This document shows, in pieces, positions 7,306 to 30,649 of a stretch of 30,712 bases of DNA (positions are counted from its first letter, which is position 1; each line of letters starts with the position of its first letter). Source of the stretch: a virus; the IMG/VR virus record IMGVR_UViG_3300001533_001534, positions 1-30,712 of that record; one strand, 5' to 3'. The position numbers and the translations under genes were made by a program. The notes beneath the pieces are model-generated. The model was not told where the DNA came from. It worked only from the letters and a program-made list of their open reading frames with translations, and did not search any database.

Positions 7306-7320
7306 AAAGAAAGGCAATAT

Positions 7321-8399: not shown

Positions 8400-8408
8400 A
8401 CCATTAAC

Positions 8409-8436: not shown

Positions 8437-8490
8437 AGCTATCAGGTATTCAGGCTTGTCGCTGCAGATCGCCCGTAGTAGGCTGTAAAT

Positions 8491-8913: not shown

Positions 8914-8958
8914 TTGACGTCGCCGCCGCATTATGGCAACCTGACCACGATTAGGTTG
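8914..8958 (+). promoter_or_regulatory. Putative regulatory region with TTGACG box and inverted repeat
   Basis: TTGACG (8914-8919) directly follows the stop codon. At 17 bases there is no good -10, and TATGGC at 12 bases is too close, so the promoter call is weak. CAACCT (8937-8942) and AGGTTG (8953-8958) form a 6-bp inverted repeat just before the next gene. Confidence 0.35.
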
Positions 8959-8986
8959 CGCACATGTCTATAACAGGAGATTTCAT

Positions 8987-9409: not shown

Positions 9410-9423
9410 GGCAAGGGTCAAGC

Positions 9424-9582
9424 ATGAAGAAGCTCGCTATACTTCTTGCAGCGCTGCAGTACGACGCCAAGGCAGCCGACATGCTGGGGCTCGCGTTCGA
9501 GGAGCTTTCCGAGATCGCAGGCGACGGGACCACATGGACGTTCCTCGAGACAGTAGGCGATTTAATTCCGGCAGGTGAATGA
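9424..9582 (+). CDS. Hypothetical protein, 52 aa
   Basis: ATG 9424 begins MKKLAILLAALQYDAKAADM and the frame ends at TGA 9580-9582, overlapping the next ATG (ATGATG). The N-terminus is Lys-Lys followed by a short hydrophobic run, like a weak signal or anchor, although AALQYDAKAADM turns polar quickly. The rest is acidic (FEELSEIAGDGTTWTFLET). No family is recognised. Confidence 0.6.
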   Translation: MKKLAILLAALQYDAKAADMLGLAFEELSEIAGDGTTWTFLETVGDLIPAGE

Positions 9583-9920
9583 TGGGAAGCAGATGGATAA
9601 AAGACGCGATCGGGATATACCGAGACTGGCGCGAACAGCGCGCCAAGCAGCGTAAAGCCGATATGGAAGACGAGCTGCTCGATAAGCGCAGACAGGCCGA
9701 TGTCCACAACTTGATTGCCAGGGCTATTGTACTTCGCGACAGCATGGCCGAACTTAAGCGGCAACTTAACGAGCTCGACAGGCGATACGCCGCTGGCGAG
9801 GTAACACCGTATAGCGCGTTGCCCGGGCTGGCGGACATCCGCACAGACCTCGGTAACGCGGAAAGCTATCTTAGCGTAGCGCTGGCCCGGCTTCGTAATC
9901 TTAGACAACTAGGTGCTTGA
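9579..9920 (+). CDS. Coiled-coil protein, 113 aa
   Basis: The product is highly charged and helical throughout. Residues ~12-65 (YRDWREQRAKQRKADMEDEL and VLRDSMAELKRQLNELDRRY) have the heptad spacing of a coiled coil, and a second helix (LGNAESYLSVALARLRNLRQ) closes the protein. This fits a scaffold, chaperone or dimerising small virion-assembly protein, but no family is recognised. Its start overlaps the previous gene and its stop lies inside the TTGACA box of the following promoter. Confidence 0.65.
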   Translation: MMGSRWIKDAIGIYRDWREQRAKQRKADMEDELLDKRRQADVHNLIARAIVLRDSMAELKRQLNELDRRYAAGEVTPYSALPGLADIRTDLGNAESYLSVALARLRNLRQLGA

Positions 9921-9944
9921 CATTCTAGTCAGTCGCTGTAATAC
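9917..9944 (+). promoter_or_regulatory. Putative sigma70-type promoter
   Basis: TTGACA (9917-9922) and TAATAC (9939-9944) are 16 bases apart. The -35 overlaps the preceding stop codon TGA (9918-9920). Two CTAG tetramers lie within and just after it. It would drive the 9996 gene and possibly the portal operon. Confidence 0.6.
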
Positions 9945-9995
9945 TGCAATCGTTTTCTAGTGTATCTGTAGCCAACAAACAAGGAGAGCAACACC

Positions 9996-10331
9996 ATGGC
10001 CAACGAACAAATGAGTCAGGAAGATTTCGCAGTAGTCAAGCTTGCGGCCGCCGAGCGGTATCGTGAGCGCAACATCCGGCCCGAGACGGCCAGCTACCTG
10101 TTCGACCGTACGCTGTGCAAGCAGGCAGGCAAGGACCAGCGTGGCAAGCGCGACGGCAGCGGGCCGTACAAAGGCAGCGCGGAAGCACAAACCGACGGTA
10201 AAGGCAAGCGCAAAGCAAAGGGCGAGCCGTGCCCGGCAGAGGAGAAAGCGGCTGCAAAGCAGCCTGACATGAACAAGATCACTAAGCTGGCAGCAGCGTT
10301 GAAGCGCACTATTCCAGCCGAGAAGGCGTAG
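9996..10331 (+). CDS. Lysine-rich hypothetical protein, 111 aa
   Basis: ATG 9996 follows AAGGAGAGC. Residues 1-45 look folded (MSQEDFAVVKLAAAERYRER). Residues ~46-90 are a low-complexity Lys/Gly/Ala region (KDQRGKRDGSGPYKGSAEAQ and DGKGKRKAKG), and the C-terminus is a short basic helix. The basic disordered part would suit nucleic-acid contact. No family is recognised. It is the first gene after the promoter at 9917. Confidence 0.65.
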   Translation: MANEQMSQEDFAVVKLAAAERYRERNIRPETASYLFDRTLCKQAGKDQRGKRDGSGPYKGSAEAQTDGKGKRKAKGEPCPAEEKAAAKQPDMNKITKLAAALKRTIPAEKA

Positions 10332-10396
10332 CGCGAGGGGCGTTACGGTACTAGGGGCGGATAACACAAACAAGAGAAGAGGGAGGGAACACTATC

Positions 10397-11182
10397 ATGC
10401 GCGTCAGAAACAAGAAATCCTACATGCTGGGTTTATCGTATGCGGGGCCTAAGAAAGGCTATATGCTACGACCTGGAGGACTAAGCCCGGAGCTTCCGGC
10501 CGACAGGTTCTACCACCCGCAGCTGCAACTGGACTGGAAACGCGGTATGATCGATGTGCTGCTGTCCGAGATGGATCGCGCCGCGCTAGGCTCGGCGGTA
10601 GCCATGTTCAAGACGGACAACCAGGTGCAGGTCAAGGACGACGAGGTTCGTCCGGTTCGAGAGGCTCCTAAGCCTACTACGCCCACTAAGCAGACTATCG
10701 TCGCGGCGATGGAGTCAAAGCTGGCTGTTGCACCTGCGGCGACATCGGAGAAGCTTGCCGAGCCAGAAGAAGTACCGCCGGAAGGCGAGCCGGTCGAGCC
10801 CTACGCCTCCTCTGGCGACGACGCCGCCGGCCCTGATCCTGACGGGGTCGAACCTGTAGAGGACGGAGCCGAGGGTCCCGAGCTGTGCCAGCAGCCGACG
10901 TGCAAGCACGCTGACGTAAAGGTGCAGTACGACGAGCGAGTCGATTTCTTCCTGTGCCAGTACTGCCGCCAGCAGGTGACGCGACGCTATAAGAAAATCA
11001 GCAAGGATATGCCTGACGCGGCTGACATGGCAATCTATCAGAAGATCTCTACTGATATGAACCTTGGTTACGCCCCGCAGCCTGCCGACGAGCCGGAGCC
11101 TGGCGCCGAGATCATTGACGACGACGATGCGCCGGAACAGTTCGGCTACGGGCTGAGTCTGTCTGACCTCAACAAGCAGTAA
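10397..11182 (+). CDS. Hypothetical protein with acidic linker and Cys4 site, 261 aa
   Basis: A GAGGGAGGG site precedes ATG 10397. The N-terminal ~65 residues are basic and Tyr-rich (SYMLGLSYAGPKKGYMLRPG). A long Pro/Glu/Ala linker (~80-165) follows. A four-Cys element near residues 169-198 (CQQPTCKHADVKVQY, then FFLCQYCRQQVTRRY) resembles a zinc ribbon. The tail is acidic (GAEIIDDDDAPEQFGYG). Because it lies upstream of the portal in the same direction, a role in capsid assembly or packaging is possible, but no family is recognised. Confidence 0.65.
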   Translation: MRVRNKKSYMLGLSYAGPKKGYMLRPGGLSPELPADRFYHPQLQLDWKRGMIDVLLSEMDRAALGSAVAMFKTDNQVQVKDDEVRPVREAPKPTTPTKQTIVAAMESKLAVAPAATSEKLAEPEEVPPEGEPVEPYASSGDDAAGPDPDGVEPVEDGAEGPELCQQPTCKHADVKVQYDERVDFFLCQYCRQQVTRRYKKISKDMPDAADMAIYQKISTDMNLGYAPQPADEPEPGAEIIDDDDAPEQFGYGLSLSDLNKQ

Positions 11183-11196
11183 AGGGGGCAGTCTAC

Positions 11197-11727
11197 ATGT
11201 CAGCCACACCATCAACGGCGTCAATATACGCTGTAATCGATCCTAGCGACGACCCGTCCGTGGTGTCGCGACCTCCTGCGCCCAGGAAGCCGGTTAGAAA
11301 GACCGCAGACACCTCGGCAGCACAGACTCCCGCCATTGCGCAAGCGGTGGCGGAGTCTGACGCGTTGTTGGCGCAGGCCGCGGCAGTACCGCGGCCTGCA
11401 GAGCCTATACCGGCACCGACGACACCGGCGGCCTATCCGTACGCGCCAGTCGAGAAACAGGTCAAGTATACCCGTGTCCAGTTCATTACGGACATCGGCG
11501 TCTACTCTGTACCGGCGCGGTCAGTGGCAGTGAGCGACTACGGTGTCATGGTAGAGCTGCCGGCCAGCGACGACATGGCCAGCTTCGTACCGGCTGTCGG
11601 GACGAAACTGTCAATAGGCAGCACCAGCGGTCGGTACAAGTGCTACTACCCGGGTACCGAGTTTGACCGGCCCGGCTCGAAAGTGCTTGTCTTTATAAGA
11701 ACGGAGGACCATGATGGAAAAGAATAA
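11197..11727 (+). CDS. Hypothetical protein with Pro/Ala linker and beta domain, 176 aa
   Basis: The N-terminal ~90 residues are low-complexity Ala/Pro/Thr (VSRPPAPRKPVRKTADTSAA, PRPAEPIPAPTTPAAYPYAP). The C-terminal ~85 are beta-rich (YTRVQFITDIGVYSVPARSV, YGVMVELPASDDM, KVLVFIRTED). It has the look of a tethered small domain displayed on, or attached to, a virion component. No family is recognised. The end overlaps the next small gene. Confidence 0.65.
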   Translation: MSATPSTASIYAVIDPSDDPSVVSRPPAPRKPVRKTADTSAAQTPAIAQAVAESDALLAQAAAVPRPAEPIPAPTTPAAYPYAPVEKQVKYTRVQFITDIGVYSVPARSVAVSDYGVMVELPASDDMASFVPAVGTKLSIGSTSGRYKCYYPGTEFDRPGSKVLVFIRTEDHDGKE

Positions 11728-11884
11728 CGTGATTGCCGAAGACCGCACACCGGGATTTACCAAATCAGCCGAGCCGGACATGTACGACGAAGCCAAGGCG
11801 GCGTTTGACGCACCTGCAGTCGACAACAAGGCTGGCGACGGTTGCAAGTGCGCAGAATGCAAGTGCGGTAAGCATAAGGAGTAG
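11714..11884 (+). CDS. Small protein with metallothionein-like CxCxxCxC tail, 56 aa
   Basis: GGAGG (11703-11707) lies 6 bases before ATG 11714; an in-frame ATG at 11711 is too close. The product is acidic and disordered until its end, which reads GCKCAECKCGKHKE. The CxCxxCxC pattern is the type of thiol cluster that binds Zn or Cd in metallothioneins, though those proteins have many more Cys. It may alternatively be a short metal-binding tail. It sits two bases before the portal gene. Confidence 0.65.
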   Translation: MEKNNVIAEDRTPGFTKSAEPDMYDEAKAAFDAPAVDNKAGDGCKCAECKCGKHKE

Positions 11885-11886
11885 AT

Positions 11887-13869
11887 ATGTCGACACAGGC
11901 CGCGATGGTGCCGTACGGGGTACAAGGCGAGTACAGCGGTGTTACCGCTTCAGGCGCCGGTAAGTTCCCCAACCCGTTCTTCGACATTGCCAGCGAGTAT
12001 ATGCCGACGGACCTGAAGCAGATCTTCGAGTTCGCCGAGTACATCTACATGAACAACGGCACCTACCGATCCGCGGCTCGACGCGTGTCGCGTTACTTCC
12101 TTACAGAAATCATACTGGACGGGGAGTCGGAAGACGAGCGCGAGGATTACGAGGATTTCATCAACAACCAGCTGCACCTACTGACGCAGCTGGCTGAGAT
12201 GGGCGACGAAATGCTCGTCTACGGTAACGTGTTCATATCCATCTACTTCCCGTTCGACAGGTTTCTGGTGTGCCCTGGCTGCGGTACCCATTACCACGTC
12301 GATACGGTAAGCTACAAGTGGGATTTCAAGGCGCTGACGTTTACAGCAGAGTGCGGCAAATGCGCATATAACGGTGTGTTTAAACGCAAGGACGTCCGGT
12401 CGCTCGATCGCAAGCGCGTCAAGCTGATACGTTGGAACCCGAAGCAGGTCAGGCTGCGGGTGCATGACATTTCCGGGCGCGTGGAATACTACTACGAGCC
12501 TGACGCCAACTTCGTCAACAAGCTTAAGGAAGGCAACCGGTTCTTCCTTAACGATACGCCCTGGAGCATGATCAAATGCTGCTCGCAGACCGGCGATAAC
12601 AAGACGCCGCTGTACAAGTTCGACGACGACCAGATCTACCATATGAAGGAAGCCACGCTGGCAGGTCTGCCAGTCAAGGGCTGGGGCATCCCGCCTGTGC
12701 TGCCTAACTTCAAACTGGCCTACTACATTCAGCTGCTGCGCCGTTACGACGAGGCTGTTGCGCTAGACTACATAGTGCCGTTCCGCGTACTTTACCCGGA
12801 CGGCGGCTCACCGGCCGGGGCGAACACCGACCCGCTCATGGGTATTTCCATGGACGTGTTCATGGGCCACATGCAGAATATGGTAAAGGCAAAGCGCAAG
12901 AACATGACCGACATCCAGATCGCGCCGTTCAAGGTCGGGTATCAAATGCTTGGCGGCGAGGCCAAAATGCTGACGCCGAAAGATTTGATCGCGTACGCGG
13001 TCGACGAGCTGCTTAACGCCGTCGGGTTTCCTGCGCAGCTGTACAAGGGTGATCTCACTATACAGGCGGCCCCGATGGCGCTGCGCCTGTTCGAGAAGAC
13101 CTGGAGCAGTCTCGTGGACGGCTACGCCGACGTCCTTAGCTGGACGCTTACCAAGGTGTCGAAGTACTTCGGCTGGGGCGATATGGACGGAAGTCTTGCC
13201 AGCGTCACCCTTGCCGACGATCTCGAGCGCAAGGCGCTCAACTTCCAGGCGGCTGCCGGTATGGATATTTCCAAGAACACGGCGTTCCGCCCGCTCGGTA
13301 TCGATTACATGGCCGAGCAGCGCAAGGTCATCGAGGAGCAGCGCGAAATCATGGAGCTCCAGCAGGAGGCCATGGAAGAGCAGGAAGCCGCGCAGCTGCA
13401 GCAAGGTGCAGGTGGCGGAGGAGCGCAGGGCGGGGCAGCCCCGGGCGGGCAGGCCGGCGCTACACCGGGCGACGTGCACGAGCAGGCCAAGGAGCTGGCA
13501 TACCAGCTGGTTGTCCAGACGCCGGAGACCGCGCGCCGTGGCGAGCTGATCAAGATCAAGCACTCCAATCCCACGTTGCACGCGCTCGTGTCGCAAGAGA
13601 TGGACAACCTGCGCCAGCAGATGGCAAGCCAGGGACGGCAGATGGTGCTGCAGCAGGAGCAGCAGAAAACAGCCGGGCACGTCCCGCGTGGCGTACGCGT
13701 AGCGGGCGCCGGCGAGATTCCAAGCCCGCTGGCCCTCGGCCTGCTGATTAACAGCCAGGCCATGGACATCGATCGCAAATACATGCGCAAGGTGGCCCGC
13801 GACATCGACATACCGGGAGTACGGTCCGCGTTCCGGTTCATCCGCGACAAGCAGCTCGGGCTGAGATAA
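11887..13869 (+). CDS. Phage portal-like protein with zinc-ribbon insertion, 660 aa
   Basis: A portal is the dodecameric ring at one capsid vertex through which DNA enters and leaves. The product has portal-like features: an early helical segment (FEFAEYIYMNNGTYRSAARR), a middle reading KGWGIPPVLPNFKLAYYIQ, and a stem-like part (LLNAVGFPAQLYKGDLTIQA). A helical, Gln/Glu-rich C-terminus (~480-560) has a Gly-rich break. Cys129, Cys132, Cys156 and Cys159 form a CxxC-x23-CxxC site, suggesting a zinc ribbon between strands. The length fits large tailed-phage portals. The family assignment is by pattern, so it is likely rather than certain. Confidence 0.7.
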   Translation: MSTQAAMVPYGVQGEYSGVTASGAGKFPNPFFDIASEYMPTDLKQIFEFAEYIYMNNGTYRSAARRVSRYFLTEIILDGESEDEREDYEDFINNQLHLLTQLAEMGDEMLVYGNVFISIYFPFDRFLVCPGCGTHYHVDTVSYKWDFKALTFTAECGKCAYNGVFKRKDVRSLDRKRVKLIRWNPKQVRLRVHDISGRVEYYYEPDANFVNKLKEGNRFFLNDTPWSMIKCCSQTGDNKTPLYKFDDDQIYHMKEATLAGLPVKGWGIPPVLPNFKLAYYIQLLRRYDEAVALDYIVPFRVLYPDGGSPAGANTDPLMGISMDVFMGHMQNMVKAKRKNMTDIQIAPFKVGYQMLGGEAKMLTPKDLIAYAVDELLNAVGFPAQLYKGDLTIQAAPMALRLFEKTWSSLVDGYADVLSWTLTKVSKYFGWGDMDGSLASVTLADDLERKALNFQAAAGMDISKNTAFRPLGIDYMAEQRKVIEEQREIMELQQEAMEEQEAAQLQQGAGGGGAQGGAAPGGQAGATPGDVHEQAKELAYQLVVQTPETARRGELIKIKHSNPTLHALVSQEMDNLRQQMASQGRQMVLQQEQQKTAGHVPRGVRVAGAGEIPSPLALGLLINSQAMDIDRKYMRKVARDIDIPGVRSAFRFIRDKQLGLR

Positions 13870-17931: not shown

Positions 17932-20900
17932 ATGCCGACGCCTGTGTTGCCCGATAATATGCGCCCGTTTGACGACATGCGGACGGCGCGCAAGTGGCTT
18001 CGTGACGGTACTCTAGACGCGTTGTCTCGAAAGTTCCCTATCGAGGACGACGAGTACAGACTGGAGCTTGCCGATCTGTCTGTGGACGGGCCCGAGGAGT
18101 TCGGCCTGGCCCGGCAGAAGAAAGCCCTGATGCGCGACGACCAGCTTCGGATTCCCATAAAGGGAACCTGGCGCCTCGTCCACAAGCCGACGTCTGAAGT
18201 GCTCGACAGCAAGCAGACCACGGTAATGCACCTGCCCTACGTATCCGATCGCGGCACTATCATCAACGGTGGTAACGAGTACAGCTCGATCAGCCAAATG
18301 CGACTGCGCCCAGGTGTATACGCGCGGCGTAAGAAAAGCGGCGAAGTCGAGGCCATGTACAATATCAAGCCCGGCACAGGCAAGACGTTCCGCACGTACC
18401 TTGAGCCATCGACCGGCGTACTTAAGGCGCATATAGGCCAGGCAAACCTGCCTCTCTATCCGCTCATGAAAGTGATCGGCGCGACTGACGAGGAAATGCA
18501 GCAGGCATGGGGCCAGGATATCTGGTCGATCAACCGCGCGGCCAACGCCAAGGGCGTAATGCAGAAGTATTACGAGCGGCTGGTCCGAAACCGGTTGCCG
18601 GAAGCCTCCGAGCAGGACCAGGCCGACGCCGTGCGCGCTGCCATGGAAGCTGCTGTCATGGACCCTGACGTAAATGCCAGGACCCTGGGACTCGAGAAAG
18701 CCGACAAGCTCACGCCGGCGCTTATGCTCCGCTCTTCGGCCAAGCTGCTTGCCATCAACCGCGGTGACGAAACCGAGGACGACCGTGACAACCCGCAGTT
18801 CAGCGACGTCTACTCGATCGAGGACCACATTGCCGAGCGCGTCGAGAAAGACGCCGGACAGCTTGCCAGGAATCTGCTTTGGAAAGCACGCCGGGACAAA
18901 AGCCTGAAACGCGTCCACCCGGGCGCATTAACGCCTTACGTCCAGTCGTATCTACTCGGCTCCAGGCTGGCCATGCCGCTGGAGGAAACCAACCCGCTGT
19001 CGCTGCTCGAGCAGCTGAACCGTGTTACCAAGCTCGGCGAAGGCGGCATATCCTCCGCTGACAGCGTTACAGACGAGGCGCGCAACGTTAATCCGGGCCA
19101 GCTAGGGTTCCTGGATCCGATCATGGGACCTGAGTGCTATGACGGCGAGACAGAGGTTATGACCGCGCGAGGATGGACACGGTGGCCTGATGTTAATCCA
19201 GGCGACAAGTTCCTGTGTCTTATTGACGGCGAGCACGACTACTGCGACCCTGTACGCCTGGTATCGTCAAAGTACAACGGTTTCATGGTGTCGGTCATGG
19301 GCGCAGGTATCGACTTGCGTATAACCCCCGGCCACAGGTGCTACATACGACCCGTAGGGATAGCCGGGTTCGACTTTGTACAAGCCTACGCGCTGGAGTG
19401 TGAAGATACAGCGCCTTGCGAGTGGCTGTGCAGTGACGACGAGGGCTGTGTCGACGCACCGGTTACGCTCACGCGTCTGAACTACGGCAGCGAGAAGTAT
19501 ACCGGTACCGTGTATTGCGCCACTGTACCCGGTAGCCTGTTGCTTGTCCGCCGTAACGGAAGCAGACCGGTGTGGTCCGGCAACAGCGAGGCTATCGGTG
19601 TTGATACGCGCGTAGCCTACAAGACTTTCAAGGGGCGCGACAAGAAGCTGTACGGCGAGTTTCTTGATAAAGCCGGCAAGCCTGTTTTCATGACGCCTGG
19701 TGACGTGGCCGGCAAGACGATAGCATTCCCGGGACAGATGGCGACGCCCGGTGACATGGCGGTGGCGTCAGTCAACGGGGAAATCAAGGAAGTGCCCAAG
19801 GATAGCGTCGATATCTCTGTGCCGTCGTTTGCTCACATGATGAGCGCCAACGTCAATCTCAACCCGATGCCCACCGCGCTGCAGGCCGCCCGGCAGTTCT
19901 ACGGCGCGAAGTTCTGGGGCCAGTACATGCCGCAGACCCATGGCGAGGCGCCGCTGGTCGCATCGAAGATGCCGGACTCGGATCTGTCTACCGGACAGTA
20001 TTACGGGCGCCGTATCGGCGCGCTTACAACCAACGAGCCAGGCACGGTGACGCGCGTGACCGGCGACAAGGTCGTTGTCACGACAGAGTCGGGCGAGAAG
20101 AAGGAATACGATCTCGTTAAGGACTTCGCGTTTAATCGCATGACTGGCGTGTCGTACCGCTCCGCCGTCGAGAAAGGCCAGAAGCTGGCTGTCGGCGACG
20201 TCGTGGCGCGATCTAATTTCATTGACGACACAGACGAGATCCGGCTTGGCAAGAATCTGAATGTGGCGGTGATCCCGTATAGGGGTCACGGGATAGAAGA
20301 TGGTGTAGTGATCTCGGAGTCCGCCGCGCGCAAGATGGCCACTGACCGGCTATTCGGATTCGATAAGGAAGCACGCAACGGCGTCAAGCTGGGCCGCAAC
20401 AAGTACGCCTCGCTGTTCCCGGACCGGTTCTCTCAAACGCAGCTCGCTAATCTCGACGACGACGGCATTGTCAAGCCAGGTACTATCCTGAAAAAGGGCG
20501 ACCCGATCGTGCTGGCGACAGGGCCGAAGCTATTGACGGCAGAGGATGTCCAGCTAGGCAAGTTGCACAAGGCGCTTCGCAATGCGCACAAGGACATGGC
20601 CGAGACGTGGGAGCACGACTACGAAGGCCGCGTCACTGACGCTGTCCGGACCCGGTCCGGGGCCAAAGTCAACGTGGCCGCGTCCGTGCCTATGCAGGTT
20701 GCCGATAAGACCAGTTCACGGCAAGGCTTAAAAGGTGTTATCGCGTGCTACGACGACAAGACCGAGGTGTTCACAGATCACGGCTGGGTGCCGTGGACTA
20801 AGCTCACGATGGAGTACCGCTTGGCCTGTCTGATTGAAGGCAGGGCGTGCTTCCGTTACCCCGAGAAGCTGGTAGCCTACGACTACGAGGGAGAAATGAT

Positions 20901-23900
20901 ACATGCCGAGCACGAACAGCTTGACTACTGCGTGACTCCAGAACACCGGATGTGGTGCCGTATCGAGCCCTATAGGGGGTGTGAGGCGGAGTACCGCGTA
21001 CGTACCGCGGATGATGTCTACGGTAAATCGGTTGCCCACCTGTGTGCTGCCGAATATGACTGGGACCCGTCCTTAGGGCCGGAGTTCGACCTACGGGGTT
21101 ACGTGGACTACGACCCGGACCGCGAGCGTAAGAAGTCAGAGGTATTGTTTGACATCGTGGATGTCGGTGCCTTCCTTGGGTGGTACATCGCCGAGGGTAA
21201 CGTGGCGTCTTACGAGGGACACGGTACAGGCCGTGGCGGGAACCATGTAACGAGCTATAAGATACAGCTAGGTCAATCTAAGTCCGCCAACCCGGGCAAG
21301 TGCGACGAGATTGCCGCGTTACTGACCAGGATGGGTTTCGGGTGGCTGTATCATGGTAGCCAGTTTACGTTCAGCAGTAAGCCCTGGCACATGCTCTTAT
21401 CGCCCATGGGACTCTGCAAACAGAAGCGGATTCCGGGGTGGGCGTGGGGTATGCCGCGTCCGGCGCTGGAAGCTATGTTTCGGGCTTTGATTGACGGGGA
21501 TGGTAACAGGTCGCGTAGGCGTACTGTGCGCGACAGCCTAAGCTACACGAGTACGTCTTACGGCCTATGCGAGGATGTGGAGCGCCTCGCGACGTTACTC
21601 GGGTATAATGCTAAGATATCCCGGCACGCGCCTAATGGTTATGCTACGCAGTGGTTTGTGGCGTGCAAGGCGTCCTGCGAGTTGGGACAGACTAGCGCGC
21701 GCTTTGTACGCGAGCCCTACAGGGGCACTGTGTATTGCGCACAGGTGCCTGGCGGTCTTGTCTACGTACGCCGGGGAAAGCGCCCTATGTGGTGCGGGAA
21801 TAGTATCATCCCGGACGACAAGATGCCGCGTAATGCCGCTACCGACGAGCCGTATGACGTTCTGCTTAACCCGATGACTATTCTCAGCCGTGTCGCCGCC
21901 GCCGCCCTCATCGAGATGCAGCTCGGCAAAGTAGCCGCCAAGACCGGTAAGCGGTTTGTGCTGCCGCAAGAGGCTCCGGAGGAAGGCTGGAACGCCTGGG
22001 CGCTGCAGCAACTCAAGGACGCCAAAGTCGACGAGAAGGATGCTGTGTTTGATCCGGGGCTCGGCCGCGCGCTGCGTAAGCCGGTCGCCACAGGCAAGCT
22101 GTACATGTCAGCGTTCCACCATCTGGCTGAGAAGAAGCTGTCTGCCCGCGGCGGGTTTGAAGGCGGATTCACGCAAGACGAGTTGCCAGCCAAGGGCGGC
22201 GGCGACGCCGCGCAGGCCAAACGCATGAGCGGCATGGATCAGCTGCAGATGCTCAGCCACGGTGCCAAGGACGTCATGCGCGACGCGCTCGCCATACGGG
22301 GCGCCAAGAACGAGAACTACTTCAAGGCATTGCGTCTTGGCGTGCCGTTGCCGGAACCCGAGACACCATTCATCTACGATAAGTTCATGTCGCTGCTCAA
22401 GGCCGGCGGTATGAACATAGAGCAGAAGGGACACATACTAAGCCTGCTCCCGATGACGGATAATGATGTCGACAGCTTGTCTCGCGGACCCATACGTAGC
22501 GCGGCTATGCTCGACCGCAACATGATGCCGATTCCGGGCGGCTTGTTCGACCCGGGTCGCACCGGTGGCGCCGCCGGCAAAAACTGGTCGCACATCGAGT
22601 TGTCCGAACCGCTGCCGAACCCTGTGTTCGAGGAGCCGATACGACGGCTGCTCGGGCTGCGTGTAAAAGACTATGGGGATGTCATTGCCGGCCGCCAGGA
22701 GTTAAACGGCGCTACAGGTGGCGCGGCTATACGTGACGCGCTGGCGTCGATCGATATAGACGGAGAGATAGACAGGCAGAGAGCATTGGCCAAGTCACAG
22801 CGTGGCGCGAACCGTGATAACGCTATCAAGGCGTTAGGCTACCTCGCGTCTGCCAGGAAGACCGGCGTCAACCCGGCTAGCTGGGTAATGACCAAGGTGC
22901 CTGTATTGCCACCTGTTTTCCGCCCGGTCAGTAAAGCCGGTGATACGACGATAACAGCGGACTTGAACGACCTGTACCGCGACATGATCGAGGTAAACAA
23001 CGCGATCCCGGCGCTGCGGAAAGATTTGCCCGATAGCGCTATCGCCGATGAGCGCGAGGCACTTTACAGCTCTCTGAAGGCCGTCATAGGTCTAGGCGAC
23101 TCTATAACCCCGGAAGGTCGGTCGATGCGGCTCAAGGGCGCGATACGCCAGGTAGTCGGCGACAACCCCAAGCGCGGGCTCATGCAGTCCAAGGTGCTTA
23201 GCAAGCCGGTCGGCATGGTCGGTCGCGGCGTCATCTCGCCCGACCCTACTCTCGATATGGACCAGGTCGGCATACCCGAGGACGGCGCGTGGAAAGTGTA
23301 CAAGGATTTGGTCATCCGGCGGCTGGTGAAGAGCAACTACCCGGTACACAAGGCGCTCGAGATGATCGAACGCCGGGAGCCGCAGGCGAAGAGCGCGCTG
23401 CTCGACGAGATGGCGGCACGTCCGGTTATCATGGACCGCGCACCGACGTGGCACAAGTTCAACCTTATGGCGTTCCGGCCTGTGCTTACCGAAGGCCACT
23501 CGATCAAGATGCCACCGTTACCGCTTAAGGGCTTTACCGCGGATTTCGATGGAAATTGCTTAGATTTCGACACGGAAATTTATCTTGCAATATCAAAGTC
23601 TGCCTTGTATAGTACTCCTGAAGGTCGGGAATGGTTCTCGACTTTTCAACAGGAGAACACAGCTATGGCAACAGGTAACGAGACTGGCACTATTCGGGTA
23701 AATGACCGTACAGAGCACGTCATAAAGATCGGTAAATTCCCGAGAGTCAGACAACCTGTAAAGGATCGCAATGGGGCCGACGTTTACGCGGTGCCACCTG
23801 GCGTTTCTGTATTGAGTTACGATCACGTATCTGGCCGGTCGTGCTGGCTGCCGGTAGACAGGTTCACAGAGGAACACGGCTGCCCGTGTGTCGAGGTCAC

Positions 23901-25299
23901 AGCCGGGCGTAGCCGCAAGGCTGTAATAAGCGACAACGAAAGCCTAGCCGTGTTTGATCCGGCTACGGGTAACCTGGTAAAGCGTGCTCCGCGCGAGGCG
24001 CTGGGTTGCGCAGTGCCGGTAGTGTGGAAAGATGCTACTTACGGCGACGAGTTCGATTCGGATATCGGCTGGTGGTACGGCGTGCTGGTTGGCGATGGCT
24101 GGGTGCGGGATAACATGGTAGGCTACTCGAAGCTGGACGACGGTTGTCGCGCACGGTTTGAGAAGCTTGCCCGAAGCAAGATTCACGAGAACTTCACTTG
24201 CCACGAGTACCGCGATCAGGCGGGAGAGAACAAGCCCAAGTACGGCAAGTCTGTCAAAATACATTTAAACGGAAAAGACTTGCCTAGTCGCGTGTTCAAT
24301 ATCTACGACGGCGGTAAAGGTGCGCTGTACAAGAAGCTGCCTGACGAGCTTTTGTCGCGCGGTTCTGAACAGTGCCTGCTTGGTTTGTTCATGGGTTTGC
24401 TTGATGGCGATTCGAGCGTGACGTGGAATACGACGCTGGCCAGGCCCCGTCTTGCGCTGCGGTTCAATACGTCAAGCCCTGCGCTGGTGCGTACGTACGG
24501 GACGCTGTTCCGCAAGCTCGGTATACGCTACTCGGTGACAACTACGCCGGCTAAAGGCACAAGCGCCGAGTCGTACGTTGTGTGTCCGAGTGTCATCGAC
24601 ACCTACGTGCTCCTAAAGTCGACCGACCTTCGGCCTGTACGTGCAAATGTGGTTGAAGTTCTGGACGCGTTCATGGCTGTGGGGCCTGGCGCGGATGACA
24701 AGGATCTGATCCCCGTTGAACGCGCCTTTGCCGAGGACGTCGCGACTATCGCGTTACGCATGCAGAAGATGTCGTTATACACGATTCTTCGGCGTGCTGC
24801 GACCAAAACGCTGATTACGCGTCCGGTTGTCAACCAGGCACTTGAATTCGCCCGCGCGAACGTGCCCGACGCTGCGCACATTGAGACACTGGCTGCCCGT
24901 GCCGCGCGGAAAGACGTGTTCTGGGAAGCGATAACCGATGTCACCGACGCCGGAAAGCGTGACGTGTACGACTTCGAGGTCCCAGGAACCAAAGTGTTCG
25001 CGCTGCACAACGGCCTGGTGGTCTACGATACCATGAACTTCCACGTCCCGGTCGACGACAAGGCGGTAAAACAGGCGTACGAGAAAATGCTCCCGAGCAA
25101 GAACCTCTTCAGCCTGACTGACCTCGAATCTCCTAGACACGTACCGCAGCAGGAGCTATCACTGGGACTGTATCTTATGACACGCCCACCAAAGAAAGGT
25201 GTGCACGCCAAAGTGTTCAGGACGGCGGCGGAGGCGAAGCTCGCTTACCGGCGTGGCGAAATCGATGCAAATGACCCTGTAGAGATATTGGAGGCGTAG
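17932..25299 (+). CDS. Fused RNA polymerase beta/beta'(N) subunit with three inteins, 2455 codons
   Basis: Removing the three inteins leaves ~1462 residues that follow cellular RNA polymerase order. Beta: RGTIINGGNEYSSISQMRLR (INGTERVIVSQ region), then EARNVNPGQLGFLDPIMGPE (rifampicin-region equivalent), EAPLVASKM, IPYRGHGIEDGVVISE, DKTSSRQGLKG, DDKMP, and the C-terminal MSAFHHLAEKKLSARGG. Beta' follows without a break: LPVLPPVFRP, DLNDLYRDMIEVNN, GMVGRGVISPDP, the ADFDG metal-binding loop (residues ~1870-1874) and HVPVDD. It ends after LGLYLMTRPPKK, so bridge helix and trigger loop must come from another gene. Phage multisubunit polymerases are commonly split; this is a different arrangement, with a beta/beta' fusion. 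Position among virion genes suggests it may be packaged. Confidence 0.88.
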   Translation: MPTPVLPDNMRPFDDMRTARKWLRDGTLDALSRKFPIEDDEYRLELADLSVDGPEEFGLARQKKALMRDDQLRIPIKGTWRLVHKPTSEVLDSKQTTVMHLPYVSDRGTIINGGNEYSSISQMRLRPGVYARRKKSGEVEAMYNIKPGTGKTFRTYLEPSTGVLKAHIGQANLPLYPLMKVIGATDEEMQQAWGQDIWSINRAANAKGVMQKYYERLVRNRLPEASEQDQADAVRAAMEAAVMDPDVNARTLGLEKADKLTPALMLRSSAKLLAINRGDETEDDRDNPQFSDVYSIEDHIAERVEKDAGQLARNLLWKARRDKSLKRVHPGALTPYVQSYLLGSRLAMPLEETNPLSLLEQLNRVTKLGEGGISSADSVTDEARNVNPGQLGFLDPIMGPECYDGETEVMTARGWTRWPDVNPGDKFLCLIDGEHDYCDPVRLVSSKYNGFMVSVMGAGIDLRITPGHRCYIRPVGIAGFDFVQAYALECEDTAPCEWLCSDDEGCVDAPVTLTRLNYGSEKYTGTVYCATVPGSLLLVRRNGSRPVWSGNSEAIGVDTRVAYKTFKGRDKKLYGEFLDKAGKPVFMTPGDVAGKTIAFPGQMATPGDMAVASVNGEIKEVPKDSVDISVPSFAHMMSANVNLNPMPTALQAARQFYGAKFWGQYMPQTHGEAPLVASKMPDSDLSTGQYYGRRIGALTTNEPGTVTRVTGDKVVVTTESGEKKEYDLVKDFAFNRMTGVSYRSAVEKGQKLAVGDVVARSNFIDDTDEIRLGKNLNVAVIPYRGHGIEDGVVISESAARKMATDRLFGFDKEARNGVKLGRNKYASLFPDRFSQTQLANLDDDGIVKPGTILKKGDPIVLATGPKLLTAEDVQLGKLHKALRNAHKDMAETWEHDYEGRVTDAVRTRSGAKVNVAASVPMQVADKTSSRQGLKGVIACYDDKTEVFTDHGWVPWTKLTMEYRLACLIEGRACFRYPEKLVAYDYEGEMIHAEHEQLDYCVTPEHRMWCRIEPYRGCEAEYRVRTADDVYGKSVAHLCAAEYDWDPSLGPEFDLRGYVDYDPDRERKKSEVLFDIVDVGAFLGWYIAEGNVASYEGHGTGRGGNHVTSYKIQLGQSKSANPGKCDEIAALLTRMGFGWLYHGSQFTFSSKPWHMLLSPMGLCKQKRIPGWAWGMPRPALEAMFRALIDGDGNRSRRRTVRDSLSYTSTSYGLCEDVERLATLLGYNAKISRHAPNGYATQWFVACKASCELGQTSARFVREPYRGTVYCAQVPGGLVYVRRGKRPMWCGNSIIPDDKMPRNAATDEPYDVLLNPMTILSRVAAAALIEMQLGKVAAKTGKRFVLPQEAPEEGWNAWALQQLKDAKVDEKDAVFDPGLGRALRKPVATGKLYMSAFHHLAEKKLSARGGFEGGFTQDELPAKGGGDAAQAKRMSGMDQLQMLSHGAKDVMRDALAIRGAKNENYFKALRLGVPLPEPETPFIYDKFMSLLKAGGMNIEQKGHILSLLPMTDNDVDSLSRGPIRSAAMLDRNMMPIPGGLFDPGRTGGAAGKNWSHIELSEPLPNPVFEEPIRRLLGLRVKDYGDVIAGRQELNGATGGAAIRDALASIDIDGEIDRQRALAKSQRGANRDNAIKALGYLASARKTGVNPASWVMTKVPVLPPVFRPVSKAGDTTITADLNDLYRDMIEVNNAIPALRKDLPDSAIADEREALYSSLKAVIGLGDSITPEGRSMRLKGAIRQVVGDNPKRGLMQSKVLSKPVGMVGRGVISPDPTLDMDQVGIPEDGAWKVYKDLVIRRLVKSNYPVHKALEMIERREPQAKSALLDEMAARPVIMDRAPTWHKFNLMAFRPVLTEGHSIKMPPLPLKGFTADFDGNCLDFDTEIYLAISKSALYSTPEGREWFSTFQQENTAMATGNETGTIRVNDRTEHVIKIGKFPRVRQPVKDRNGADVYAVPPGVSVLSYDHVSGRSCWLPVDRFTEEHGCPCVEVTAGRSRKAVISDNESLAVFDPATGNLVKRAPREALGCAVPVVWKDATYGDEFDSDIGWWYGVLVGDGWVRDNMVGYSKLDDGCRARFEKLARSKIHENFTCHEYRDQAGENKPKYGKSVKIHLNGKDLPSRVFNIYDGGKGALYKKLPDELLSRGSEQCLLGLFMGLLDGDSSVTWNTTLARPRLALRFNTSSPALVRTYGTLFRKLGIRYSVTTTPAKGTSAESYVVCPSVIDTYVLLKSTDLRPVRANVVEVLDAFMAVGPGADDKDLIPVERAFAEDVATIALRMQKMSLYTILRRAATKTLITRPVVNQALEFARANVPDAAHIETLAARAARKDVFWEAITDVTDAGKRDVYDFEVPGTKVFALHNGLVVYDTMNFHVPVDDKAVKQAYEKMLPSKNLFSLTDLESPRHVPQQELSLGLYLMTRPPKKGVHAKVFRTAAEAKLAYRRGEIDANDPVEILEA
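19135..19584 (+). other. Intein 1 (mini-intein, residues 402-551) in the beta part
   Basis: Inteins excise themselves and join the flanking protein. This one starts at Cys402 (CYDGETEVMTARGW), has the TxxH motif in LRITPGHRCYIRP, and ends YCATVPGSLLLVRR...VWSGN before Ser552. At 150 residues it has only the splicing domain and no endonuclease. The usual penultimate His is Gly. It interrupts the conserved stretch DPIMGPE|SEAIGVD, equivalent to the ETPEG region of beta. Confidence 0.88.
20746..21801 (+). other. Intein 2 (residues 939-1290) with LAGLIDADG endonuclease
   Basis: It starts at Cys939 (CYDDKTEVFTDHGW), has TxxH in CVTPEHRMW, and ends VYVRRGKRPMWCGN before Ser1291. The inserted DOD-type homing endonuclease shows both helices, GAFLGWYIAEGNV and FRALIDGDGNR. 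It interrupts GLKGVIA|SIIPDDKMP, equivalent to the catalytic-lysine region (GRHGNKG...DMP) of beta. As in intein 1, the penultimate residue is Gly rather than His. Confidence 0.9.
23557..25029 (+). other. Intein 3 (residues 1876-2366) in the catalytic DFDGD loop
   Basis: It starts at Cys1876 (CLDFDTEIYLA) and its C-terminal block reads DVYDFEVPGTKVFALHNGLV...VYD before Thr2367. The DOD endonuclease helices are IGWWYGVLVGDGWV and LGLFMGLLDGDSSV. The last intein residue is Asp instead of Asn, and the residue before Cys1876 is Asn. The mature loop would therefore read ADFDGN-TMNFHVP rather than ADFDGD-TMNFHVP, unless the splice point differs. Confidence 0.85.
23585..23667 (+). promoter_or_regulatory. 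Internal promoter-like and ribosome-site-like sequence inside intein 3
   Basis: TTGCAA (23585-23590), a 17-base spacer and TATAGT (23608-23613) are followed by AGGAG (23651-23655) and an in-frame ATG at 23665 (Met1912). The stretch is clearly more AT-rich than its surroundings, and the protein encoded there (ALYSTPEGREWFSTFQQENT) reads like translated leader sequence. It could allow separate expression of the endonuclease part. Confidence 0.4.
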
Positions 25300-25301: not shown

Positions 25302-26009
25302 ATGACACGCGAACAGACACTACAGCAGGCTTACAGTCGCGGCTTCGAAAAGGCGGCACAGGAAGCGTCAGATACCTGGCGACAGCAGGCGGCGTCACGA
25401 GACTGGTCGGGCGACTTGTCGCTGGCGAATGACTATCTTGCCCGCAAGGGCGGAGACGGGAAGCCGCTGTTTGGCGCAGGAGCCACCGGACAGCACTTTG
25501 TAAACGCGGCCAGCAACACGCTTGCGACTACCGGCAAGCATATACCGGTGCCAGTAGCCCTGGCCGCTGGACAAGTCGAGTCTAGCCTGGGTAAGTCACT
25601 CAAATCTAAAAACAACCTGTTCAACGTCGGTAACCACGACGACGGCCGTAAGCGTGATTTCAAGACCATGCAGGACGGAATCAACGCGTATTTCAGTACT
25701 GTCGCCAAGGACTACCTGCCGCAGCATAACGGAGACATGGAGGCGCTGCTGGACGCCGGCTTCAAGAACTACGCCGGCAGCCCGTACGCCTCGGCAACGA
25801 ACTATGCGGACCAGGTACGAAGCCAGCGCGATTTCATAACAAACGGCACATGGCGCGCGAAGGCACCAGTCACGACGCCCAAGGCTGTCACGACGCCAGT
25901 AGCCCGCCCTGGCTTCCAGAAAGCAACGCGAGACGCGGCAATAGGCGGGCACCAGGCATACCTGAAAGAGCTGCTTAATGCGAAGCGGTTGCACGACATC
26001 GAAAGGTAG
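25302..26009 (+). CDS. GH73-like muramidase/glucosaminidase, 235 aa
   Basis: The enzyme would cut the glycan strands of peptidoglycan during infection. After an N-terminal tag (LQQAYSRGFEKAAQ) the catalytic region reads PVALAAGQVESSLGKSLKSK followed by NNLFNVGNHDDG. Glu93 in the VESSLG helix is the expected catalytic acid. Near the end, NYAGSPYASATNYADQVRSQ is the typical closing motif of FlgJ/GH73 and related lysozyme-fold enzymes. No signal peptide is present. The tag is shared with the next large gene. Its place right after the polymerase and virion genes favours a virion-borne wall hydrolase over a lysis endolysin. Confidence 0.75.
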   Translation: MTREQTLQQAYSRGFEKAAQEASDTWRQQAASRDWSGDLSLANDYLARKGGDGKPLFGAGATGQHFVNAASNTLATTGKHIPVPVALAAGQVESSLGKSLKSKNNLFNVGNHDDGRKRDFKTMQDGINAYFSTVAKDYLPQHNGDMEALLDAGFKNYAGSPYASATNYADQVRSQRDFITNGTWRAKAPVTTPKAVTTPVARPGFQKATRDAAIGGHQAYLKELLNAKRLHDIER

Positions 26010-26015: not shown

Positions 26016-26222
26016 ATGGACACACACTTCTACGACACAGTATGGGACCGACTCGAGCGGTGTAACCCGGCGCTGAAGCGCGCCTCGCGTATCAGCATAC
26101 ACCCAGACGAACTCAAACGCATAGCCAAGCGGTGCTACGACGAAGGCTGCAAACACACGCGGGAGCAGTACGGAACCAAACCAGGTGACATGCCGGACTT
26201 CATGAAAGGGCTGTTCAGATGA
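26016..26222 (+). CDS. Hypothetical protein, 68 aa
   Basis: ATG 26016 follows GAAAGGTAG, and the stop overlaps the next start (ATGA). The product (YDTVWDRLERCNPALKRASR through ELKRIAKRCYDEGCKHTREQ) is helical with three Cys and two internal His, possibly metal-binding but without a known pattern. No family is recognised. Confidence 0.6.
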   Translation: MDTHFYDTVWDRLERCNPALKRASRISIHPDELKRIAKRCYDEGCKHTREQYGTKPGDMPDFMKGLFR

Positions 26223-29200
26223 CACGGGAAGAGATACTACAGGCAGCGTACGCACGCGGCTTCGATAAAGCCGCCGCCTACCGCCGCGGCTTCGAGAAGG
26301 CTGCCCAGCTAACCGACAACCCGTGGTACGGTAAAGGTAATCTACCCGGCGCCGACCGGGTCGAGATAAATCAGCCGTTGCGTCACCGCGTGGTGAACTT
26401 CTTCCGCCCCAACACCTACGTCCCGCGCCCAGAGGACATAACGATCCATATGTCACCCAGATTCGGCAACCCCTACCGCAGCGAGGATGTAAACCGCGTG
26501 CTTGACGAGGGCTACCATGTCAAGTCCACCCCCGCCGCGGCCATAGCCAGCCAGTACCCCGACGACGCCACATTCCGGCAGGAAGTCGCGGATGCCAACG
26601 CGTACCGCGCAACGCGTCCGGATCTTTTCGGGCCGGATCGGCATTTGCCAGGGCAGCTGACGGATAAACGTCTCTCGGCCGTGACCATGGTAACCGATAA
26701 ACCCGGCAGATTACCGACGCACGCGGCACGCCGGCATGCTGCGAACCACAGTGGGGTCGGATTTTATTCGAATACCGGTCGCGCCGTGTTTATGCACCCG
26801 AATAACGCATACGCGGGTACATTTCTGCACGAGATGCGGCACGGTTTACACAACGCGCAACCACACAATCGGATGTATGACAGCGATCCCCGGTGGGGCG
26901 ACAAACCCAAAGAGATGGAAGCCGAGGGCGGTAGCTACATGGCTACGGCGCGCGGTATGGGCTTCCCGCGGTCTGTCGACACCGGGAAGGCAATTGTGGG
27001 TAGCCGGGATGGCCTGGTTCCTCTGGAGCAGCAGCAGGCCTACAGCCGGGCGATGGAGGACTATAATACCGCCAACGCGGCACGCACCGCGCGCAGGGAC
27101 GCTTTTTGGGAGCAGTCTAAAGAGTACGACAAGCTGCCGTTCTTTCAAAAGCTGCGTACACCTCAGCCAGAATTCCCGCATGAGCCGTTTCCGGAGATGC
27201 CGTCCCGGCCGAAACCAATACCGTACCCGGAAGGGCTCGGAAAACATCTAGACCTAACCCCCGGAAATAAACCACGGGAACAGTGGGAACGCGAGTTTGC
27301 CGATCGTTTGCCGGGCTTCGTACAGAACCAGACCCGTAACGACCAGCTCGAGGCAGCTTACGCACGCGGGTTCGAGAAGGCAGGGCAGGCATACGACGCC
27401 GTCACGCGTGCCGCGCCTAAGGTACCGCAGCCGGCACGCGCTGCTCTGGCGGCTAGTAGTGCTGCAAAACCGTACTGGGAGCGTATAGACCCGTGGAGCC
27501 CTAGATATTTTGCTTCTGACGCTGATAGGGCGCCCGGAACTGTTGGATCACGCGGAACGTTCAACCATACGCGTTTTCTTGAGGACATATACGGCGGGGA
27601 GAACAACCTGCGCAAAGAAGTAGGGGCTGCCGGAGAATACGCAAAATCACACGAGATACCTGTTGATTACAGTAGGATGTTATCCGGCTACACGCAGCCG
27701 ATGGCTATGGAACACGGCGCCGGAGGTTCATACGATCCCGCTAACAACACTATAGCAATTCCGGGAACTGGTCACACCCCAAGTCCAGCCGAGTTCAGCA
27801 TGAGGCCACGCGACGGAATTGCCGAAGAAGGACACAACAGCGAGCGTAGTCAGCAGCAAACGGCCGGGCACGAGCTGGCTCACGCTATGTACGACCCTAT
27901 TAAAAGTCCTCGCTTGTATTATCGTCCTCGCGGAGGGCTTGCTCGCTGGGTCTCGGATCAGTATAGCGACGTACTATCAACTAACCCCGAGGCGTATGCG
28001 AGACTAAGCGAGCTGTATGACCAGTACAAAGGCCACCCGCAAGTAGCGATGCCAGAACGTATACCTGCTCATGCTGCGAAGAATCGCTCGGCCGGTGACC
28101 AAGAAGAGCTACATGCTAAAGAGTTTGGTAGGCTTCAGGAGCTGAACGCTTACATAACACCTGGAAGTTCTCCGTCACACCAGCTTGGAGGTTCGACATA
28201 CCCGGAAAAAGAGCCAGCTGAATTCACACCCGCTGCGTCGGCGCTACAACATTATGCGTACAACATAACCGGCCAGCGTATAACGTCCCCAGAACAGTAC
28301 GCGGAGTTTATTGCAGGTCTGGAATCGCCGGAACGGTTTAAGCAATTACCGTCAGAAGTCCAGCGGCTAGTTACATACCGTAATGTTATGCGCGATCAAG
28401 ATCCGTCTGGTAAACGGCTTGCGATGTTTGACTCCGTGCTGGGTCGGATGATGGGGGCAATAGTGACTAACGATAGCGTAGGGCGCAACGACCAGCTCAA
28501 GGCTGCGCAGAGCAGCTTGAAACCGGAGGTCGACCCAGTCGCCACGGCATCCGGCGCGCTTATGGTAAATGAACTTATGAGCAAGCCGCGGTACACTAAG
28601 GCAAGCGCAAAGACGCCGTGGGCGGCCCGGCATATGGCCAAGTACCAGCCGATAACCAGCGGCGCGTTAAGAAGCCGTGTTCTTCCCTTCGTCGGACGCG
28701 CTGCCGGGACGGCCAGCCTATTGGCCGAGCCGGTTGCCAGTTACGCAGGTGCAATAGCCGGAGGCGGGAACATGGCTGACGCTAGTGACGCGTTCCTTGG
28801 CGGCGTGGATAATGGCGGCCCGGAGGAGGTAGCCGGTATGTACGAGCTAGAAAAAGCCTACCGCCGCGGTTTCGAAAAAGGCGCAAGTAGCGCAACTGAC
28901 GCCCTACAGGCGGGCAGGGAGGTCTACCCTAACGTTGTGCGAGGTGTGACTGCGGGCGGACTGATGGACACCGCTAAAGGCGTACTGCGACCGTTTAACT
29001 ACAGAGGCGGGAGTCCGTTGTCTCCGCTGTGGAAACGCCACGAACTTGCGCACTGGTCAAAAGGTACTGGCCTCGTACCTAGCCTTTCCGAGGAGATGCG
29101 CGCCGGGTTCGCGTCTGGATCAAAGTATAATCTAGCCGGTAGTGTTAGCAGGTCCCCGATACGAGGTGTGACCGAATCGTTGTATCAAGCAGCCAGGCAC

Positions 29201-29580
29201 CCGCACTACCTTGGTAACACGGCCAGCGGTAGAGCGCTTGCTTCGAAGCCTGTGCAGGCGTTGGCAAGCGGTGTCCGCGGGGCCGGAAACGCGCTAGGAA
29301 ATATACACGCGGGCCTTCGCATGTACGCCGGACAGGCGAAAAATATCGCCAAGCAGGTCGTACCCTATGCCGCCGCAGGCGCGGCCAAGACCTACGGGAC
29401 TGCGGCGCTCACCGCTGCCAAGCCGGTCGCCGCAGCCGCCGGTAAATTTGTAGCCCTGCCTGCGGCAGCCGCCGCAACCGGAGCAGGTATCGGCTACGGC
29501 GCACGCCGTTTATCGAACCACCTTAGCGGCGGCCTGTACGACAAAGGCATGAACGCAGCCGGTGGCTGGCTGGCGGACCA
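26219..29580 (+). CDS. Large multidomain virion-type protein with two HExxH motifs (3' end lost at junction)
   Basis: The open frame runs to 29800 (1193 aa), but residues ~1116-1193 belong to IspE, so the phage protein is truncated here. It starts with two tandem tags (AYARGFDKAAAYRRGFEKAA); further copies occur at ~residue 381 (AAYARGFEKAG) and ~881 (KAYRRGFEKGA). The first module has FLHEMRHGLH with His204-Glu205 and His208, followed by EMEAEGGSYMATAR. The second has GHELAHAMYD with His551-Glu552 and His555. Both look like zincin metallopeptidase sites. The third part is Ala/Gly-rich and hydrophobic near its end. Met874 (28838) has GGAGGAGGT 7 bases upstream, so a shorter product may also be made. 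Confidence 0.65.
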
Positions 29581-29585
29581 GAGGA
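29560..29585. other. Junction between phage and bacterial DNA
   Basis: Left of here, codon use and the RGFEKAA-type protein are phage-like. From about R1122 onward the frame reads RNDLEAPALLNAPAIG, the C-terminal part of bacterial IspE, and the DNA becomes clearly more GC-rich. The exact crossover cannot be fixed because GWLADQ could belong to either side. No att-like repeat or integrase is visible. Confidence 0.75.
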
Positions 29586-29800
29586 ATGATCTGGAAGCCC
29601 CGGCCCTGTTGAATGCCCCCGCCATCGGCACGGCGCTGGACGCGGTGCGGGCCGAGGGTCAGGCGCGGCTGGTGCGGATGTCCGGCTCGGGCGCCACGGT
29701 GTTTGGCCTTTACGAGGATGCGGCCGCCGCAGCCCGGGCGGCAGAGGCGCTGGCCGGCGCAAATCCCCACTGGTGGGTACGGCAGGCGCATCTCGGCTGA
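29582..29800 (+). pseudogene. ispE: 3' fragment of ispE (4-diphosphocytidyl-2-C-methyl-D-erythritol kinase)
   Basis: IspE phosphorylates CDP-ME in the MEP isoprenoid pathway and is normally essential. About 72 C-terminal residues are present: NDLEAPALLNAPAIGTALDA, then the GHMP-kinase glycine motif RMSGSGATVFGLYEDA, and the closing ANPHWWVRQAHLG. The N-terminal ~three-quarters, including the ATP-binding loop, is replaced by phage sequence in the same frame. A CCCCT/AGGGG hairpin follows the stop. Confidence 0.85.
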
Positions 29801-29962
29801 TTTTCGCCACACCCCTGCCGCGTGAGGGGCCATTTCGGGGCATTTGCCGCCAAGCTGAAACCCCATCCAACATGAATGGATTGTCATGCTCGAGAGGTCA
29901 CTCTTGTGGAGTCTCACGTCGGTCCCTCCCTGAATCGGCGTAACCGAACAATGGAGTTTGCC

Positions 29963-30649
29963 ATGTTGAAGACAGCCATGATGTCGGCGGTTGCCACCGT
30001 CGCCCTGACCGCCGCCGGGCCGGCCCTGGCCCAGGAAACCACGCCGCCCACGACCCCGCCTGCCCAGACGATGCAGGCGACGCCGCAGGAGGCCGCTCAG
30101 GCTCCGTCTGTGACCGAGGTACTGCAGGCCGACGGACGCTTCACGATCCTGCTGGCCGCGCTGGAACAGGCCGAGCTGACCAGCGTCCTGGAAGACCAGG
30201 CCGCCGTGTCGATCTTTGCCCCCACCGATGACGCCTTTGCCGCCCTGCCCGAGGCGGACCGGGCGCGACTGATGGACCCGGCCAATATCGTCGAGCTGCG
30301 CGAGCTGCTGCTGTATCATGTGATCGCGGCCGATGTGGCCTCTGAACAGATCGTGGGGATGCGCGGGGGCGTTCCGACCGCTGCCGGCGCCGAGGTCCAG
30401 TTCGACGGCACCGGGGATGCCATCCGCGTCGATGCGGCCACGGTGGTCGAGGGCGATATCCAGACCGCCAATGGCGCCGTCTTTGCCATTGATGCCGTTC
30501 TGAACCCGGCAACGTCCCAGGCCGCCATGGGCGACGCGGAAGCGGTCCAGCCGACCGAACCGGTCGAGTCGACGCCGCCGACCCTTCCGGAAGACCCGGT
30601 CGATGAGGCGATGGAGCCGAATGCCCCCCTGCCGACGACTCCGGAATAG
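29963..30649 (+). CDS. Secreted fasciclin (FAS1) domain protein, 228 aa
   Basis: The frame is open from 29876, but GGAG lies six bases before ATG 29963, which also starts a good signal peptide (MLKTAMMSAVATVALTAAGP then ALAQE, likely cut after ALA). A short Pro/Thr linker leads to one FAS1 domain at ~55-190. It shows VTEVLQADGRFTILLAALEQ, the H1-box IFAPTDDAFAALP, the YHV motif (LLLYHVI), and the closing NGAVFAIDAVLNP. The C-terminus is an acidic Pro-rich tail. FAS1 proteins act in adhesion or at the cell surface; the exact role is unknown. Composition matches the ispE fragment, so it is bacterial. Confidence 0.9.
   Translation: MLKTAMMSAVATVALTAAGPALAQETTPPTTPPAQTMQATPQEAAQAPSVTEVLQADGRFTILLAALEQAELTSVLEDQAAVSIFAPTDDAFAALPEADRARLMDPANIVELRELLLYHVIAADVASEQIVGMRGGVPTAAGAEVQFDGTGDAIRVDAATVVEGDIQTANGAVFAIDAVLNPATSQAAMGDAEAVQPTEPVESTPPTLPEDPVDEAMEPNAPLPTTPE

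Follow-up and report, generated by a model that had tools for sequence, protein, structure and literature searches.

The window, by which we mean the whole 30,712-nt stretch of viral DNA analysed here, contains an open reading frame at 17932-25299 on the plus strand that runs from an ATG to a stop codon without any internal stop. It encodes a precursor of 2455 residues, in which the RNA polymerase (RNAP) subunit β, the N-terminal part of β′ (β′N) and three inteins are fused in one chain. The features of this gene and an upstream neighbour are as follows, with slashes marking the intein boundaries.

11887-13869 (+): upstream gene of 660 aa, a candidate portal gene by position and size, with 57% identity to its positional counterpart in L005
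17932-25299 (+): fused RNAP β::β′N precursor with three inteins, 2455 aa, identified by its frame, Pfam, NCBIfam and a PDB profile
17932-22471 (+, right limit approximate): β-like extein segments, split by inteins 1 and 2 (PDB β profile, Rpb2_3, Rpb2_6)
19135-19584 (+): intein 1, a mini-intein of 150 aa (residues 402-551), MGPE/CYDGETEV...WSGN/SEAIG, in the conserved β segment GPE/SEAIG
20746-21801 (+): intein 2, 352 aa with a LAGLIDADG endonuclease (residues 939-1290), GVIA/CYDDKTEV...WCGN/SIIPDD, after GLKGVIA of β
22471-25296 (+, left limit approximate): rpoC1-like N-terminal part of β′ to just past the catalytic barrel, split by intein 3 (PDB profile, Rpb1_1, Rpb1_2)
23542-23556 (+): catalytic loop DFDGN (GAT TTC GAT GGA AAT), with AAT at 23554-23556 in the position of the third Asp, as compared with relatives
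23557-25029 (+): intein 3, 491 aa with a LAGLIDADG endonuclease (residues 1876-2366), DFDGN/CLDFDTEI...VVYD/TMNFHVP, in the catalytic loop
25030-25296 (+): C-terminal extein TMNFHVP...EILEA downstream of the catalytic loop, from the translation

Removal of the three inteins leaves an extein of 1462 residues. Pfam analysis of the full ORF revealed the β domains Rpb2_3 and Rpb2_6 followed by the β′ domains Rpb1_1 and Rpb1_2, in addition to LAGLIDADG_3 and Intein_splicing, and among NCBIfam families the whole ORF is matched best by PRK09603, which comprises natural β/β′ fusions (E 2.7e-68). A profile of four exteins compared against the PDB matched β chains at positions 22-1012 and then β′ chains at 1087-1458; the latter segment corresponds to residues 166-539 of B. 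subtilis β′, or to most of cyanobacterial RpoC1. The structural model of an intein-free relative, L003 (residues 264-1463), also matches RNAP β chains with an E value of about 1e-33, at a pLDDT of only 64. The β and β′ domains are thus both recognisable and in order, as in RNAPs of the multisubunit, double-psi barrel type. A previous reading from sequence alone had placed a stop-free frame and three inteins with exactly these boundaries at conserved polymerase segments, and had predicted that the extein would match β and then β′; all of this agrees with our analysis. Its proposal of a fusion of β with N-terminal β′ holds for the order and the joining, with the limit that β′ is present only up to the catalytic double-psi barrel, as the chain, like that of Salmonella phage Arash, ends shortly past the metal-binding triad. 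The same reading compared the enzyme with polymerases of the phiKZ type, in which β is divided among separate polypeptides; it is not a fused form of that type, and β of the window is continuous except for the inteins, is joined to β′ and lies much nearer to cellular β/β′.

Vibrio phage D69 and phage Arash (gp206) each have a single protein that matches the 1462-aa extein, with 98% coverage and ~30% identity; the matches in Vibrio phages D181 and D148 extend over nearly the same span, but come from interrupted genes. At the DNA level, the window has no similarity to known phages. Scans of viral contigs with alignments yielded 67 and 80 loci; among bacterial and archaeal genomes, the β′N alignment matched only one short Balneolaceae MAG contig. 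Surveys of ORFs and HMM matches distinguished three layouts: β (~1130 aa) and β′N (~385 aa) as separate chains; β::β′N fused, with ~1450-1530 aa excluding inserts; and a single chain β::β′N::β′C of ~2030-2120 aa, exemplified by L126 (2028 aa), which has Rpb1_5 near its end. The two-piece layout with fused β::β′N accounts for 64 of the 101 non-redundant loci. The fusion, once thought unusual, is therefore the usual condition in this family of phage RNAPs, found in isolates (Arash and D69) and in many viral contigs when phage proteins were searched for it.

On an unrooted tree of the 101 non-redundant RNAPs (quick search, LG+G4), the three layouts require 3 changes, one of which rests on L156, cut by its contig end, versus 33.9 for shuffled labels; the layout is thus an inherited trait. 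The three-piece form makes up one clade (support 87) and the single-chain form another, with the fused two-piece form everywhere else. The window groups with L079 and with L077, which is 63% identical along the whole extein and has no inteins. Multisubunit RNAPs of jumbo phages have been described as several chains, and here a large phage lineage joins β to the catalytic half of β′; the sister clades, one with β and β′N apart and one fully joined, provide naturally occurring chain cuts with which to test the importance of individual RNAP joints. Another natural cut lies inside β in L084 (5626-10086), where a TAA with an immediate in-frame ATG divides the fused gene. In the β part of L105, L106, L112 and L117, insertions of 320-420 aa near HMM positions 214-246 lack intein ends and represent extra domains.

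Arash Gp206/Gp216 (OQ632216) and Vibrio phages D69, D181 and D148 share the same β::β′N fusion over 97-98% of the extein. Arash encodes β′C in a gene of its own, and its virions contain large amounts of Gp206 and Gp216; the window differs from these phages in sequence, at ~30% identity. Compared to the three inteins of the window, the Arash and Vibrio relatives have none, and D181 carries a group I intron instead. The Arash authors named Gp206 ‘beta’ and Gp216 ‘beta prime’, with no mention of a fusion (PMC10585845). The mReC RNAPs (Weinheimer and Aylward 2020, PMC7481178) likewise belong to Caudovirales, can be aligned with cellular β and β′ and were mined from IMG/VR. Fusion is mentioned in that study only for crAssphage and inteins are not mentioned (PMC7481178); its filter requires NADxDGD in the COG0086 match, which the TADFDGN of the window fails.

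The cellular fusions PRK09603 and PRK14844 also have β and then β′ in one chain, but they carry the whole of β′, whereas that of the window stops after the catalytic barrel, as in its family outside the single-chain clade. This cut is at a place common to cyanobacterial RpoC1/RpoC2 and the virion and non-virion RNAPs of phiKZ/AR9 jumbo phages, which are likewise β/β′-like phage enzymes (PMC7598289). The phiKZ/AR9 enzymes differ in having β in two to three chains, unfused to β′, and two RNAPs per genome (PMC7598289), compared to one in the family of the window. The RNAP of crAss-like phages resembles that of the window in bearing two barrels in one chain, and is extremely divergent from cellular RNAP (PMC7886860). 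In the zeta group, the RNAP genes are interrupted even inside the DxDxD motif; these interruptions are described as stops and frameshifts, with inteins named for TerL, whereas those of the window are inteins (PMC7886860). Among eukaryotic and archaeal RNAPs, inteins occur near the active site in second-largest subunits, and archaeal A′ and A″ also carry inteins; all these hosts are cellular or eukaryotic viruses, in contrast to the phage gene of the window (PMC1635734). Inteins near RNAP active sites, one-chain two-barrel phage RNAPs and phage RNAPs alignable with cellular ones were thus already known (PMC1635734, PMC7886860, PMC7481178). In the open-licence papers searched, we found no account of the β::β′N fusion or its one- and three-chain relatives, nor of inteins in the RNAP catalytic loop.

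Inteins 1 and 2 show all the features of class 1 inteins that were examined: a Cys at position 1, a block B with TPGH and TPEH, respectively, and a GN/S end. Intein 1 has no endonuclease, whereas its allelic counterparts in L004 and L005 are full length; further alleles occur in L079 and others. L079 shares sites 1 and 3 with the window, and its middle intein is displaced from site 2 by about 11 residues in the upstream direction. Across the family, insertions with intein ends occupy about a dozen sites of the gene (near HMM positions 348, 374, 401, 512, 589, 778, 787, 789, 815, 925, 937 and 1373), which are empty in the intein-free relatives L003 and L077. Three inteins in one polymerase gene, regarded as unusual at first, are not the maximum, as L109 carries four. 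Group I introns are also present in the fused gene of D181 and, at nearly the same place as each other, in those of L009 (7455-7735) and L051 (10458-10739). The gene is therefore a hot spot for both kinds of element, including inteins placed against the catalytic aspartates.

Intein 3 is inserted between the third residue of the metal-binding triad, the third catalytic Asp in relatives, and the next residue. No relative emerged when intein 3 was used as the only query, but an alignment of two intein sequences did reveal relatives, and homologues sit at the same site in six other phages (L158, L157, L079, L076, L154 and L088). Foldseek comparison of its AlphaFold model (pLDDT 67) gave the TliVMA intein, PI-PfuI and PI-SceI as top matches, consistent with a HINT fold combined with a LAGLIDADG endonuclease. 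Intein 3 lacks both the block B His of class 1 (SDNES, compared to SEDHS in L158) and the terminal Asn, ending in Asp. The block B His is described as the most conserved intein residue, and inteins ending in Asp can splice (PMC4031507), so intein 3 may still splice.

The ends of these loop inteins vary: C...D/T in the window and L158, S...HN/T in L154, and a start with Gln or Tyr, a block B His replaced by Asp and an SN/T end in L076, L157, L079 and L088. The last four resemble class 2 in having Ser before the last Asn, but have Thr at +1, and possibly represent a new splicing subclass. The loop intein of L088 is split: ORF1 (2716-9987) stops 54 residues into the intein, and ORF2 (9959-12061) encodes the rest of it, including the LAGLIDADG endonuclease, together with the C-extein, and starts at its own ATG with a ribosome-binding site after its own stop. 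L090, from another sample, is identical base for base. A frameshift was considered and found unlikely, because the sequence is the same in two samples and ORF2 has its own stop-SD-ATG start. As judged from the sequence, L088 and L090 would carry a natural split intein whose active site could be completed only by trans-splicing. Where inteins, including this split one, adjoin the catalytic aspartates, polymerase activity would depend directly on splicing, which may explain why automatic annotation misses these enzymes. Altogether, the odd part of this gene is the intein in its catalytic loop, and not the fusion.

The sequence-only reading took the intein sites as marks of essential motifs; intein 3 lies in the catalytic loop, but the loop sequence itself, DFDGN, had been overlooked. 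Replacements in the catalytic triad inactivate cellular RNAP. The DxDGD motif was kept in 101 of 101 relatives scored, whereas the window extein, with canonical splice boundaries and provided the base is correct, departs from it. Once spliced, the product would read DFDGN, which counts against a working polymerase. Among the other loop-intein alleles, five keep DxDGD, and L154, a single-chain RNAP (5710-13170), has DFNGD (AAC) instead of DFDGD. The triad is changed in 2/7 intein-bearing alleles versus 0/90 without the intein (Fisher p 0.0045, a post hoc test that ignores kinship).

One explanation, which we regard as possible though rather doubtful, is that AAT at 23554-23556 arose through an error in sequencing or assembly, or represents a minority variant, the true motif being DFDGD. 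The window is a single contig in which one base, GAT to AAT, suffices, and L158 has DFDGD with an intein of the same C...D/T type; against this, L154 also has a loop intein and bears a D-to-N change at another position of the triad, giving the skew of the alleles noted above. It is less likely that the polymerase is dead or dying, a declining gene in which DFDGN and the decay of intein 3 (the lost block B His and the terminal Asp) go together. All 2455 codons have stayed open despite three inteins, and the polymerase motifs outside the catalytic loop are intact. Moreover, one catalytic β′ locus was found per record in the 12 records searched, and a dead copy would hardly persist for long in a phage that has no other RNAP. 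Very improbable, in our judgement, is a functional DFDGD made only by maturation, either through conversion of Asn to Asp or through an unknown splice that keeps an Asp from the far end of the intein. A shifted splice, GGA/AAT...TAC/GAT ACC, would leave DGDTM, but we know of no intein chemistry that supports it. A related idea, that the terminal Asp of intein 3 and the upstream Asn have changed places as compared with L076, was abandoned, as L158 keeps DFDGD with C...D/T.

That assembly created the fusion, in whole or in part, is hardly credible, even though the right contig end is probably bacterial, because the same boundary recurs in isolates and tens of independent contigs and L077 is similar along the whole extein, which answers the one objection of this kind raised beforehand. 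At that end (about 29579-30649), ORF 26219-29800 finishes as the C-terminus of an IspE-like GHMP kinase and is followed by a fasciclin gene; this is probably bacterial DNA, joined by chimeric assembly or at a real junction, and the contig is therefore not fully clean.

We found no β′C gene within the window, as the contig ends or is chimeric where β′C would lie. In relatives, β′C is a separate gene of ~615-650 aa, located 2-5 kb downstream of the fused gene where positions were compared. PF04998 is present in 9 of the 10 records searched, among them that of the single-chain L126, and is missing only from the L088 record; a separate β′C gene was accordingly found in 8 of 9 two-piece records tested, again except L088.

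Taking these results together, we propose that the product of the gene is very probably a precursor, which loses its inteins to give the large subunit of a two-piece phage RNAP that is packaged in the virion for early transcription. One chain would provide essentially all of β and β′ up to the catalytic barrel, and a second gene product of ~615-650 aa the rest of β′ from the bridge helix and trigger loop onwards. The three inteins would excise themselves after translation, and the resulting ~1462-aa chain would pair with β′C. We infer that splicing, this pairing, packaging and activity despite DFDGN apply to the window. The inteins may be mobile parasites, kept where imprecise loss would break the polymerase. 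In Arash, the only phage of this type for which packaging is known, Gp206 ranks first among the virion proteins detected, with 3516 spectra, 128 unique peptides and 100% coverage, and is accompanied by Gp216 (β′C, 1210 spectra) and a sigma factor (467 spectra) (PMC10585845). Its authors consider that Gp206 may serve early transcription or be a carry-over from abundant expression (PMC10585845). The natural interpretation is an RNAP carried in the virion for early transcription, and by homology the enzyme of the window may likewise travel in the virion and act with a phage sigma factor on early genes. The Arash portal gene lies two places upstream of gp206.

Elsewhere, the window carries a phage-encoded tmRNA at 5206-5589 on the plus strand (Rfam RF00023, E 9.3e-42; ARAGORN gave no call), adjoined by tRNA-Tyr (4953-5040) and tRNA-Met (5052-5123). 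A motif resembling AYxRGFEKAA or AFAAGFCKAAEAxGVDP recurs in the ORFs at 25302-26009 and 26219-29800 and in L006 (at 1929, 19316 and 20211), with 4 matches in the window versus 0.15 expected, and is perhaps a targeting tag.
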